A program made the translations under genes and the position numbers. From Sphingobacterium multivorum (GTDB lineage Bacteria > Bacteroidota > Bacteroidia > Sphingobacteriales > Sphingobacteriaceae), in assembly GCF_900457465.1 (NCBI RefSeq), contig NZ_UAUU01000009.1, forward strand, positions 558,001 through 622,000: a DNA stretch of 64,000 bases, in the 5' to 3' direction. The notes under the pieces were generated by a model. The model had not been told where the DNA came from, ran no database searches, and saw only the letters and a list, made by a program, of their open reading frames with translations. Positions 56,317 to 60,963 of the stretch are shown piece after piece; within the stretch, counting starts at the first letter, position 1; the number at the start of each line of letters is the position of its first letter.

Positions 56317-56985
56317 CTAAAAGAGTGCAACAGTATTCTTCGCGACCTGGTCTGCATTGCCACTAAAATGATGCCCGCCGGAGAGGTATTTTTTTGTAAA
56401 ATTCTTAAGTGTTATCTTCTGTATCGGGAAATCAGCTTCATCATCACCAAGAATAACGCCCGTTTTGACTGCACCCATTCGATTGATTTCCGCGATCACG
56501 TCAAGACTCCGTTTTGTATTACTCCGACCCAAAATATCCGCTATATGGATCTCCAAATCTGTTGACACAGATGGTTCCAGCAGGACAACACTCTTTAGGT
56601 TCTTCTTAATGACGGGATCCAGGCGATTAATAATAAAAGGAACCGCGTCTGCGCCAAATGAATACCCCACTACAAAAAGATGTATATTTTGCCGTGCTAA
56701 GAGTATGTTTTTCAGTGTATTCGAAACATCGGCAGCAATCTCACTCGGGCTTTTCTTCTTCCAGAAATAGGTTTTCGAATCGATCGCTGCCACAGTATAT
56801 CCTACTCCAGCAATCAGCTCACAAAGCTTGTTAGAGAATGAATTAAATCCACCATCGCCACTCAGATAGAGAACCAAAGGTAATGCAGCTTTATTGTTCC
56901 AATATTTCATGTCAATCAAACGCTGTTGTGCAAACGCATGAAACGCCATGCCAGCAATTATTAATAAGGTAGCTATTTTTTTCAT
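56317..56985 (-). CDS. VirJ/AcvB-domain alpha/beta hydrolase
   Basis: 222 residues with a signal peptide (about 1-20, AFHAFAQ). Alpha/beta-hydrolase features: the N-terminal PLVLYLSGDGGF (the LSGDGGW-type motif of the AcvB/VirJ family), nucleophile elbow VVGYSFGAD with Ser109, an acidic residue in LGDDEADFP, and the catalytic-type His in GGHHFSGN. In Agrobacterium, AcvB is a periplasmic hydrolase of lysyl-phosphatidylglycerol made by LpiA. Here the gene starts 21 bases after mprF on the same strand, mirroring the lpiA-acvB pair; this strongly suggests the same role. Confidence 0.85.
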   Translation of the reverse strand: MKKIATLLIIAGMAFHAFAQQRLIDMKYWNNKAALPLVLYLSGDGGFNSFSNKLCELIAGVGYTVAAIDSKTYFWKKKSPSEIAADVSNTLKNILLARQNIHLFVVGYSFGADAVPFIINRLDPVIKKNLKSVVLLEPSVSTDLEIHIADILGRSNTKRSLDVIAEINRMGAVKTGVILGDDEADFPIQKITLKNFTKKYLSGGHHFSGNADQVAKNTVALF

Positions 56986-57006
56986 CTGTACAGCATCTAC
57001 ATGAAG

Positions 57007-59601
57007 CTATTCGTTCGGTTTCATGACTTTGACCAGTGCTACAGGAAGTTGTATGAGATCAAAATCATTATCAAATATAAGGTATTTATTTTCCCAAAAT
57101 GTCGCATACTTCTCTTTAAAGTCGCGCAGGCTATGGTAATGTTTAAAGTTACCCAATCGTGTTGAGGCAAATTTCATAATCTTTTCTGCGGGACTATCTG
57201 TCGCCCCCAACCCCGTCATCGGTACCATGCCCAAATTTAGATAGACGTACTTTTTGGCCTTAGCATACGCAATAAGCTCAACAATCAATGCATCCATGCT
57301 ACCACCCGGTGCATCAAGAGACTTCCGAATCATATCGTAGGTGCACTCATCTTTCGCATAGTCGGGGATGATATTCAGAAAGGCTACGATAGTATTCTGC
57401 TCATTTTTCAGTACAATGATATCTTGCAAAATAAGCTCATTTTCATCAAACATCCCTTGCGAAAAAACCATTTCCTTTTTATCAAATTCTTTTAACCATT
57501 CGTTGGAAATTATCCTTAACTGATCTATAATTGCCTTTTCCTGCGGCGCTTTCAACACTTCTGTTGTAAAACCCTTTTTTTGAATTGCATTAAGTCCATT
57601 GCGTAATGACTTACGTTCTTTTCCTTCGAGCTTGAATGTTTCCAATTCTAATACAGCCTCTTGTCCAATGGTGATCTTCTGTTTACGTAGGGATGAAAAA
57701 TGAACCAAACTATTTTCATCAACACGGTAATAAATGGCCTTTAAACCATTCGCATAACAGTATTGATCGAATTCCTGGACCAACTCTTCCTTATCCCCCT
57801 GTTCACAGACAGGCTCATCCAATACAATAGCAAATTCATTCGCCAAGCGATAAGCGGTAAATCCCTCCGAGACTTCTGAGAAAAACAAACTCTTATCTTT
57901 TCCCAATTTAAAGAAATCCATGGGAGACTGACCAAACTCAATCAATAATTGTTCTGCACGTTCCAATTCAGATTGGCTGGAGTCTTCATCTGCGAGGAGA
58001 CGGGGACGAGCTAACGCGTAGATTAGTAGGAGCCAACAAAAAAGTCCAAGTACTTGCGTAATCCGCAGGAATTCTTGTCCAAATGCCGTTTGGGGCATCA
58101 AGTCATCATCAGCAAACAAGAGGAAGCTTCGTGCTGTATGATAGATAGATTGTCGCCAGGTGAAGTCGACACCGAAATGCTGTTTATCAATGAAGTAGAA
58201 GCTCAATACGTCAAACAGGCATATGGCTAGGAGAGCAACAAAAAATGTGATAAACCCGATTCGCACCCAGCGAATATTACTCTTGATCCGATATTGCTTA
58301 TAGCTCACGGCCAGTAAAATCAAGGTCAATAAAGCAACCGAAGCTTCTTCATAGTCCAATGCCTTAAACACGTGCCCAAAAAGCGACAAGGCGCTAAACG
58401 CCACGGCGATCCAAAATGCAATTCGGAAACCTTTGATCAAGTACGCCGAGGTCACCAACAGCCCTAAGCCTAACACTAACACCATAAATTTGGACGCGTG
58501 AATTGCTTCTAAAGGCAAATAGAAACGATCAAGTTTCATCCGGTCGGCCAAAGGAGGCGTCAATACAGATACGAGATTTACCATGCCCAAGAAGAAGATA
58601 AGCAGCGCTGGGCCAATACGTGCCAGCAATTGTTTCCCACGCCATGCAAAAGCCAGAAGCCCCAGGACTAAAGGTAACCAAAATTCGAATGCCCGGTAGA
58701 GAATTGTAATGCCCAATCCTTCTGCCTGCGAGTAGCCGTACGCTTTAAAAATATACAGCATAGTCAACTCTACAGCCCCAAGCCCCCGTAGAAAAGGAGA
58801 AACAATCATCAATACCACCGAAACAGTATAGGCAATAGCCGCAGCCTCGAAAGAGTGGTCCAAACCAAGGGCATACATACTTACAAAAGCATGGGCAATA
58901 CCGCAGCATTCAACGACCATCGATGCCAGCATGGTACCCAACAAATATTTTAGCTTGACCTCTCCTGAGAATATTTCATCAATATTAGAGGCTACAGCAG
59001 GAAATTTTAGTTCAACCCAGCGATAGACGCCTTTGTGTGTTCTAAAAGACCAAACGAGCCAAAATACGACGCCCAGAAGCAGCCCCAAAACCACCAATGA
59101 GATCCAGGCATCACCAAAATTTTTATTGTGCCAAATCGTATACAATATAACAGGTACACCGATCAGAAAGACCGTCAGTAGTCCGACATAGCCATACAGC
59201 GCCCCTGCTTGATGAATTTGCGTCGTATTCAAATTTCTTTTTCGCAACTGCGTCGTTGTATATGCCAAAGAACTAATCCCACCCGCAGGCAGAAACACAC
59301 TGAGTAAATTTCGCTTGAGGAAAAGATCAATAGCGATTCTCAGGTTAATAGAAAGGCCTATCGCTTTAAAACTCTGCACATACATCAATCCCTGAAGTAC
59401 AATATAGACGAGAGTAATTCCTACGCCGACCAAAACCCAGGTTAGATTGGCCGCACACAAATGTGGAATGATGGCAGCAAGCTCTTTTCGTTCATTTCTA
59501 AAAAATACAAAGGCCAACAAAATAACCAAAACAGCTATTAGTTCCTTCCAATAGGTCTTTGGTGAAAAATGTCGAATTCGTTGCGCAATAGTTTTGGCCA
59601 T
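57007..59601 (-). CDS. mprF: Phosphatidylglycerol lysyltransferase/flippase (MprF family)
   Basis: 864 residues. A long N-terminal membrane part of about 13 helices (residues about 18-540, flippase domain; starts RIRHFSPKTYWKELIAVLVILLAFVFF) and a cytosolic C-terminal aminoacyl-transferase domain of the DUF2156/GNAT type (about 560-850; DFFKLGKDKSLFFSE, AFLNIIPDYAKDECTYDMIRK, GALDALIV-like GGSMDALIVELIAYAKAKKYVYLNLGMVPMTGLG). It transfers Lys (or Ala) from aminoacyl-tRNA to phosphatidylglycerol and flips the product, lowering envelope charge and giving resistance to cationic peptides. Cotranscribed with the VirJ-like hydrolase downstream. Confidence 0.92.
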   Translation of the reverse strand: MAKTIAQRIRHFSPKTYWKELIAVLVILLAFVFFRNERKELAAIIPHLCAANLTWVLVGVGITLVYIVLQGLMYVQSFKAIGLSINLRIAIDLFLKRNLLSVFLPAGGISSLAYTTTQLRKRNLNTTQIHQAGALYGYVGLLTVFLIGVPVILYTIWHNKNFGDAWISLVVLGLLLGVVFWLVWSFRTHKGVYRWVELKFPAVASNIDEIFSGEVKLKYLLGTMLASMVVECCGIAHAFVSMYALGLDHSFEAAAIAYTVSVVLMIVSPFLRGLGAVELTMLYIFKAYGYSQAEGLGITILYRAFEFWLPLVLGLLAFAWRGKQLLARIGPALLIFFLGMVNLVSVLTPPLADRMKLDRFYLPLEAIHASKFMVLVLGLGLLVTSAYLIKGFRIAFWIAVAFSALSLFGHVFKALDYEEASVALLTLILLAVSYKQYRIKSNIRWVRIGFITFFVALLAICLFDVLSFYFIDKQHFGVDFTWRQSIYHTARSFLLFADDDLMPQTAFGQEFLRITQVLGLFCWLLLIYALARPRLLADEDSSQSELERAEQLLIEFGQSPMDFFKLGKDKSLFFSEVSEGFTAYRLANEFAIVLDEPVCEQGDKEELVQEFDQYCYANGLKAIYYRVDENSLVHFSSLRKQKITIGQEAVLELETFKLEGKERKSLRNGLNAIQKKGFTTEVLKAPQEKAIIDQLRIISNEWLKEFDKKEMVFSQGMFDENELILQDIIVLKNEQNTIVAFLNIIPDYAKDECTYDMIRKSLDAPGGSMDALIVELIAYAKAKKYVYLNLGMVPMTGLGATDSPAEKIMKFASTRLGNFKHYHSLRDFKEKYATFWENKYLIFDNDFDLIQLPVALVKVMKPNE

Positions 59602-59725: not shown

Positions 59726-60963
59726 ATGAAAGAGAAAAAGGTTTTGTTCATCGGACTGGTGTGGCCAGAGCCAACATCTTCAGCAGCGGGCTTCCGTATG
59801 ATGCAATTAATTGAGACGTTTATTAATCGCTCTTATCAGATTACATTTGCTTCTGCTGCTGCCAAATCGCCGTATAGTGCACCTTTACAGTCTCTCGGGA
59901 TCCAGGAACAGACCATCGTGCTGAATAGCAACAGCTTTGATGAATTTATTGCGCAACTTAAGCCCGACATTGTTGTATTTGACCGCTTTATGGTAGAAGA
60001 GCAATATGGTTGGCGTGTTGCACAGCATTGTCCAAATGCACTCCGCGTACTTGACACGGAAGATTTGCATTTTTTGCGTCAGGCGAGACCAGACATCCGT
60101 CAAAAATAACGGTGATTTTTCCTTTCAAGAGTTATTTACCGATACGGCCAAACGGGAAATTGCCGCGATATTGCGCAGTGACCTCTCGTTGATCATTTCC
60201 GAATCCGAAATGAAGATTCTGATCGAAGAATTTCGCATTTCACCCGATATCCTTTATTATCTCCCTTTTCTCGAAGATGAGATCACTGCTGCAGATGTGG
60301 AGCAATGGAACACCTTCGAAGAGCGCAAGAACTTATTATTTATCGGAAATTTTATCCATGAGCCGAACTGGCATACGGTACAATACCTAAAAACACAAAT
60401 CTGGCCGCAATTACGGAAGATGCTCCCCAAAGTGGAATTACACATTTATGGCGCCTATGCAACCCAAAAAGTACTTCAGTTAAACAACCCAAAAGAGAAT
60501 TTCCTGATCAAGGGCCGAGCGGAATCTGCTCGTCTGACCATGGAAAGTTACCGTCTACTGGTGGCTCCAATTCAATTTGGTGCCGGTGTGAAAGGGAAGT
60601 TTATCGACGCCATGCAGACAGGTACCACCATCTGTCACCACGAAAGTTGGTGCAGAAGCCATGAAGGGCAATTTGGACTGGAATGGCTTTATCGAAGACG
60701 ATCCCGAAACGTTCTGCCGAAAGACTGTTGAGCTCTACGAAAATGAAGATCTTTGGAAAACGGCCCAAGAACATGGTATCCGTATTATCAACGAACGTTA
60801 TGAAAAACGAAAGTATCAGTCCGATTTTATGACTAATCTATCTTTATTAAAAGTACAGATTGACAGGCATCGTCAACAAAACTTTATTAGTCAGATATTA
60901 TTGCACCACACGATGCAGAGCACAAAATATATGTCTTTATGGATCGAGGAAAAAAATAAATAG
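59726..60963 (+). pseudogene. Glycosyltransferase (GT4-like), frame broken by two 1-base insertions (probably sequence error)
   Basis: Read through the breaks: about 411 residues, GT-B-type glycosyltransferase. N-terminal Rossmann half VLFIGLVWPEPTSSAAGFRMMQLIETF, and a C-terminal half with LLFIGNFIHEPNWHTVQYLKTQIWPQLRKMLPKVELHIYGAY, KGRAESARLTMESYRLLVAPIQFGAGVKGKFIDAMQTGTP and the GAEAM motif. First break: extra C at 60089-60090. Second: extra A near 60624-60630. Donor and acceptor are unknown. It is divergent from mprF and convergent with the MBL hydrolase. Confidence 0.82.

Follow-up and report, generated by a model that had tools for sequence, protein, structure and literature searches.

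The mprF-virJ locus

Agrobacterium tumefaciens pairs in one operon the genes lpiA and acvB, which encode, respectively, a synthase/flippase and a periplasmic hydrolase of lysyl-phosphatidylglycerol (Lys-PG). Two adjacent genes of a bacterium of another phylum raise the question whether lipids are aminoacylated, and the aminoacyl mark erased, by a comparable unit in Bacteroidota. These genes, mprF and virJ, reside in a stretch of 64,000 nucleotides from Sphingobacterium multivorum (assembly GCF_900457465.1, contig NZ_UAUU01000009.1, positions 558,001 to 622,000 of the forward strand), here called the window. Quite likely the two form one unit, in which MprF would aminoacylate and flip a lipid and VirJ would erase the mark in the periplasm, tuning the level of the lipid and the surface charge. 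Gene order, co-inheritance, and the conservation of catalytic and substrate residues give good support to their being a synthesis/turnover module of the lpiA-acvB type. We infer the hydrolase activity and the export of VirJ from Agrobacterium AcvB and VirJ, and, more weakly, the use of lysine and phosphatidylglycerol (PG) and the role in charge. Positions of the relevant features refer to the window.

57007–59601, minus strand: mprF, 864 amino acids, ATG start; N-terminal membrane (flippase) region (PF03706), C-terminal aminoacyl-lipid synthase (PF09924) at residues 563–842
57325–57336, minus strand: DMIR motif, MprF residues 756–759, matching DLMR of known MprF proteins in the structure alignment
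56986–57006, minus strand: mprF-virJ spacer, 21 bases
56317–56985, minus strand: virJ, single-domain AcvB/VirJ-type alpha/beta hydrolase, 222 amino acids, ATG start
56929–56985, minus strand: putative signal peptide, VirJ residues 1–19, MKKIATLLIIAGMAFHAFA followed by QQ, judged by eye
56845–56862, minus strand: SGDGGF, VirJ residues 42–47; Asp44 corresponds to AcvB Asp271
56647–56667, minus strand: nucleophile elbow GYSFGAD, VirJ residues 107–113; Ser109 corresponds to AcvB Ser336, Asp113 to Asp340
56548–56565, minus strand: STDLEI, VirJ residues 141–146; Asp143 corresponds to AcvB Asp370
56365–56373, minus strand: HHF, VirJ residues 205–207; His205 corresponds to AcvB His433

The open reading frames (ORFs) and the motifs agree with the initial annotation, which had placed the start of virJ 21 bases after mprF and had pointed to the SGDGGF and GYSFG motifs. 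The export signal that it had also assigned to VirJ is visible as a signal-like N-terminus, recognized by eye from the translation alone. A sequence scan found no terminator-like site in the spacer, and the sigma-70 and terminator sites scored in the scan were not more numerous than in shuffled sequence.

The four nearest named relatives (L077–L080) carry both genes in full length, with 87–88% identity in VirJ and 94–96% in MprF. They include S. siyangense (L080; VirJ 87%, MprF 96%) and three Sphingobacterium metagenome genomes (VirJ 88%). Such conservation rules out a degraded gene or a frame artefact. A known defence system was also discarded, as neither protein had a PADLOC match at E 0.01.

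Recurrence of the pair in Bacteroidota

The initial annotation had proposed a survey of virJ genes adjoining mprF in Bacteroidota. Three samples were analyzed, and adjacency is far above chance in the congeneric and the named genomes. Among 93 congeneric genomes, VirJ was found in 34 and MprF in 45, and VirJ never occurs without MprF (0/34; Fisher p 4e-16, relatedness ignored). VirJ places number 51, counted from 59 rows, the remaining 8 being second domains or trailing pieces of proteins that had been counted before. MprF lies within 6 kb, the limit set for proximity, at 45 of the 51 places, and on the same strand in 45/45. The order is mprF>virJ at 29 places, virJ>X>mprF at 12, and virJ>mprF at 4.

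The named-genome set includes the best 80 of 153 confirmed VirJ relatives from Bacteroidota, each stored with a flank of up to 5 kb. The loci come from Sphingobacterium, Chryseobacterium, Kaistella, Halpernia, Pedobacter, Mucilaginibacter, Dyadobacter, Flavobacterium, and other genera. MprF is encoded within the flank at 74 loci, 2 of which have it on the opposite strand and one of which (L145) has a partial gene where the contig ends. The order mprF>virJ was found in 68 of the 74, and the genes are separated by 60 bases at most, or overlap, in at least 56 of the 68. The latter is a lower count, since the rule of starting proteins at the first ATG creates false gaps of 533 and 478 bases in L095 and L121, whose frames are open for 233 and 236 codons and have only GTG or TTG as early starts. 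If the first ATG is taken as the start, the commonest spacing is a 4-base overlap (18 loci).

In the sample of the whole phylum, VirJ was identified in 11 of 395 genomes and the PF09924 domain in 73. PF09924 is present in all 11 VirJ-bearing genomes, and the genes are adjacent in 9. In G064 they lie on one contig about 330 kb apart; in G339 they are on separate contigs, and VirJ is a fragment. The pairing therefore marks a scattered minority of Bacteroidota and is not general in the phylum. The earlier idea of an lpiA-acvB-like module conserved in another phylum is favoured by gene order, co-inheritance and residues, but has to be narrowed in its generality, given the 11/395 figure.

Random placement of two MprF genes in a genome of 5 Mb would put one near a given VirJ locus in about 0.4% of cases (arithmetic only), and chance adjacency is ruled out by the recurrence at congeneric and named loci. 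The other genes near the pair, namely MBL, glycosyltransferase, LLM, MiaE and RlmN, were confined to the Sphingobacterium loci L077–L090 and L093, which leaves mprF-virJ as the conserved unit. A longer unit including the downstream luciferase-like gene was rejected, as mprF and virJ are together elsewhere without those neighbours.

Family, residues and fold of VirJ

VirJ matches PF06057 (VirJ) with 128.1 bits, the curated cut-off being 22, and the crystal structures 9xhn and 9xhm of Agrobacterium AcvB with E 2.6e-20 and 7.3e-20, respectively. In the structure alignment, where AcvB residue numbers were transferred by counting from Ser336, the catalytic Ser336 and His433 are kept as Ser109 and His205, and the acidic residues Asp271, Asp340 and Asp370 as Asp44, Asp113 and Asp143. 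In AcvB the S336A change abolishes activity, and the three Asp residues serve Lys-PG hydrolysis (PMC13197417, excerpt). All 78 named loci that have a residue in the column of Asp143 keep this Asp; two of the 80, L095 and L121, have none, since their proteins were begun at the first ATG. The counterpart is Ser in the VirJ of a second pair of the same genome, and Lys in L008. The hydrophobic membrane loop of AcvB, Trp378-Leu379, reads Ile-Leu in VirJ; it is still hydrophobic, but Trp is lost.

The fold predicted for VirJ by AlphaFold2 is that of an alpha/beta hydrolase (mean pLDDT 90.4). The input alignment was made by 38 sequences, VirJ of the window and 37 from the loci. L133, with a true interruption ahead of the His433 column, and L136, whose matched stretch overruns its stop, were left out. 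Among the 50 matches listed by VIA-align the model has Z scores of 15.7–18.0, and no match listed indicates a particular substrate. In a Foldseek search of the PDB (library up to 8 April 2026), domain 1 of Brucella VirJ (9rc4) is at rank 29 among the matches listed; AcvB itself is not among the best 50.

As a separate observation, a stop interrupts the two-domain VirJ of Sphingobacterium yanglingense (L133, 5001–5534) upstream of the His433 column, suggesting either loss of the gene or a sequencing error.

The synthase and the proposed cycle

MprF carries in one protein both the PF09924 (199.5 bits, cut-off 27.5) and the PF03706 (78.2 bits, cut-off 33.4) domains, and its closest solved structures are the LpiA/MprF entries 7f47 and 6lvf. 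The Asp of the DMIR motif is presumably the catalytic one (D750 in LpiA).

According to the reading preferred here, charged tRNA would supply MprF with an aminoacyl group, lysine being the most likely one. MprF would attach this group to the glycerol headgroup of a lipid of the inner membrane, for which PG is the most likely candidate, and flip the aminoacyl lipid to the periplasmic leaflet. VirJ would be exported to the periplasm, where the predicted Ser109/His205 hydrolase would cut the ester bond, giving back unmodified lipid and free amino acid. The cell might in this way raise or lower the amount of aminoacyl lipid, and hence its surface charge.

Relation to known systems

The pair shares with lpiA-acvB the association of an MprF-type synthase with a PF06057-type hydrolase, the Ser and His residues, and the counterparts of Asp271, Asp340 and Asp370. 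As in an operon of the lpiA-acvB type, the synthase and hydrolase genes are adjacent, on the same strand, and kept across species. In contrast to AcvB, which has two domains, VirJ has one, 27% identical to the catalytic domain of AcvB; the phylum is another, and the canonical PG-phosphate synthase, PgsA, does not exceed the cut-off in the genus of the window. A direct interaction between AcvB and LpiA is reported (PMC13197417, excerpt).

VirJ encoded by the Agrobacterium Ti plasmid is a single-domain exported hydrolase and lowers Lys-PG (PMC13135905, excerpt); VirJ of the window is likewise single-domain, and putatively exported. Its gene resides on octopine-type Ti plasmids, whereas virJ of the window adjoins mprF. 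Pseudomonas PA0920-PA0919, encoding a synthase and a hydrolase of alanyl-PG (Ala-PG) and presumably an operon, is likewise a synthase-hydrolase pair of a Gram-negative bacterium. The amino acid is alanine there, and the counterpart of Asp370 is Thr or Ser, but Asp in VirJ of the window (PMC13197417, excerpt). LysX of Corynebacterium and Mycobacterium, an MprF homologue making lysyl-diacylglycerol, is a precedent for an acceptor other than PG, and the abstract of the source does not mention a VirJ partner (PMC10580965). By its NCBI model name LysX is fused to lysyl-tRNA synthetase, unlike MprF of the window.

No description of an mprF-virJ pairing in Bacteroidota was found in the open-licence literature searched. 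The parts and the principle are already known; what is new is the recurrence in Bacteroidota, a second pair in the genome, and the question of the acceptor.

Alternative explanations

Pairwise distances of MprF and VirJ are strongly correlated (r=0.946 for 73 pairs, against 0.14 at most in 999 shuffles; 73 of 76 pairs were compared, L095, L121 and L145 being left out), which favours one unit, but the correlation reflects in part the relatedness of the species. This limitation and several other observations weigh against a unit that makes and removes Lys-PG. VirJ is missing in 11 of the 45 congeneric MprF genomes. MprF is missing within 6 kb of 6 of the 51 congeneric VirJ places, and in the flank of 6 of the 80 named loci, all six of which encode two-domain proteins. 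The NCBIfam equivalog model of MprF, NF033480, gives 564.6 bits (match 9–840 of 841), below its cut-off of 600. Since this is so, the protein is called MprF-type, and not the NCBI equivalog; the cut-off is a naming threshold, not a functional feature. Glu368 and Glu384 of the AcvB pocket are replaced by Ser and Thr, and Glu410 and Glu413 both by Asp, still acidic, in columns where the alignment of loops is uncertain and the Bacteroidota rows vary, and which are not a defining feature as far as known. Lastly, none of the 93 congeneric genomes has a canonical PgsA (TIGR00560) that exceeds the curated cut-off.

The amino acid transferred might be alanine or another, rather than lysine, although this is doubtful. 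The replacement of Glu368 and Glu384 is in line with it, and the specificity of MprF was judged by similarity alone, which is a weak guide and does not reveal the amino acid. The synthase domain nevertheless scores closer to Lys-PG synthases, with 158.8 bits for 4v36 (named as Lys-PG synthase), 145.2 for 5vrv (named in the database as Protein regulated by acid pH) and 131.3 for 6lv0 (LpiA), against 110.9 for the Ala-PG synthase domain 4v34. We take 5vrv and 6lv0 to be Lys-PG enzymes. Asp370 of AcvB is Thr or Ser in homologues from Brucella abortus and from Pseudomonas, which makes Ala-PG (PMC13197417, excerpt); its retention as Asp143, here and throughout the scorable named loci, points to lysine.

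Acceptors other than PG have to be considered next. The module would be the same, but the lipid modified by MprF would be a different one with a glycerol head or a hydroxyl group, for example phosphoglycerol ceramide or diacylglycerol; VirJ would read the aminoacyl-glycerol head and remove the aminoacyl group. We regard this variant as unlikely, but since canonical PgsA is below the cut-off throughout the genus, the part of the preferred reading that concerns PG needs care. PgsA exceeds the cut-off in 6 of 14 control genomes. With the threshold set to E<=1e-15, 296 of the 395 genomes of the phylum sample have a match; all are from classes other than that of the window, and none is from the genus, family or class of the window, the latter including Chryseobacterium. 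The genome of the window has a serine palmitoyltransferase over the cut-off, clustered with a CDP-alcohol phosphotransferase, and so probably makes sphingolipids; CDP-alcohol phosphotransferases number four, the others being PssA, over its cut-off, and two that are unassigned. Diverged members of this family in the genome are encoded at 1507–2109 of L066 and 2008–3048 of L065. An MprF homologue that lysylates diacylglycerol is also known (PMC10580965, excerpt), and docking to AcvB was made with the lysyl-glycerol fragment alone (PMC13197417, excerpt), which in our view suggests that the lipid tails may not matter.

On the side of PG, the genome encodes a cardiolipin synthase (TIGR04265, 416.8 bits, cut-off 290), which suggests that PG exists. 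Bacteroides, among the control genomes, likewise lacks a PgsA match at E<=1e-15, although the presence of PG has been reported for Bacteroides (PMC5167729 and PMC12132519, excerpts). The TIGR00560 model may thus miss diverged PgsA, and the enzyme may simply be diverged in the class of the window. PG is probably present in this organism, made by a diverged enzyme. A broader proposal seems rather improbable: in a class with no recognised canonical PgsA, and in a genome equipped for sphingolipids, the lysyl or other aminoacyl mark set by MprF and erased by VirJ would sit on a different lipid from PG, phosphoglycerol ceramide for example, and the second pair, with two substrate-binding acids missing from its hydrolase, would handle yet another aminoacyl lipid.

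Very improbable is that VirJ is a general esterase, or acts in secretion or on some other substrate, and adjoins mprF through co-regulation in envelope stress: the alpha/beta-hydrolase fold is common to many esterases and the 6 congeneric and 6 named VirJ places away from MprF would fit, but no congeneric genome has VirJ without MprF, the acids serving Lys-PG hydrolysis in AcvB are conserved, and AcvB, the closest solved homologue, is a Lys-PG hydrolase.

Envelope charge and polymyxin tolerance

If the reading of mprF-virJ as a unit of lipid aminoacylation and its removal is true, reversible aminoacylation of lipids is a means of envelope control also in a scattered set of Bacteroidota. The genus is suited to asking which lipid is used by MprF where canonical PgsA is unrecognised, and the lack of canonical PgsA matches in the class (E<=1e-15), beside the cardiolipin synthase of the genome, raises the question of the route of PG synthesis there.

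Sphingobacterium detergens E70 is reported to have minimum inhibitory concentrations of 256 ug/mL for polymyxin B and 512 ug/mL for colistin. Few resistance genes were found by its authors, who argued against a modification of lipid A and suggested vesiculation dependent on sphingolipids; in their main text the word mprF does not occur (PMC12724326). S. detergens CECT 7938, a strain other than E70, carries the pair (L083), which makes mprF-virJ a candidate contributor to polymyxin tolerance. Polymyxin made the surface of E70 more negative, from -26.3 to -34.9 mV (PMC12724326, excerpt). This shift does not speak for induced lysylation of lipids, and is to be added to the points weighing on the other side; mprF was outside the scope of that study.

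Additional VirJ genes and neighbouring regions

A second cluster resides on contig 2 of the same genome, at 77–83 kb (3415–9439 of L063, which spans 74000–88000). It is made by virJ2, a DUF5686/CarboxypepD_reg gene, and mprF2, all on one strand. The mprF2 product is 36% identical to MprF of the window. VirJ2 keeps the catalytic Ser and His and the counterpart of Asp271, while those of Asp340 and Asp370 are Gly and Ser. By these residues, the second hydrolase may act on another aminoacyl lipid. The same VirJ-MprF spacing was observed at 12 of the 51 congeneric VirJ places, the middle gene being identified in the genome of the window only; in our reading the DUF5686 protein may be of outer-membrane type.

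A third VirJ, of the two-domain AcvB-like type, is encoded on contig 9 (L064, 4574–5766). Frame changes interrupt this gene and several genes next to it, which may be a problem of assembly quality; the contamination of the genome is estimated at 6.45%. A region of contig 10 (L065, 494–4029) encodes a nucleotidyltransferase, an ATP-grasp-like protein, a CDP-alcohol phosphotransferase, and an MprF-like membrane region that lacks the synthase domain, and possibly represents a separate pathway for phospholipid head groups.

In the window, a gene divergent from mprF (59726–60963, plus strand), which we read as glycosyltransferase-like, is broken into three overlapping ORFs, two of which have no family match above the cut-off. 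It is either a broken gene or a sequencing error; in S. siyangense (L080) the gene is a single open frame of 411 amino acids.

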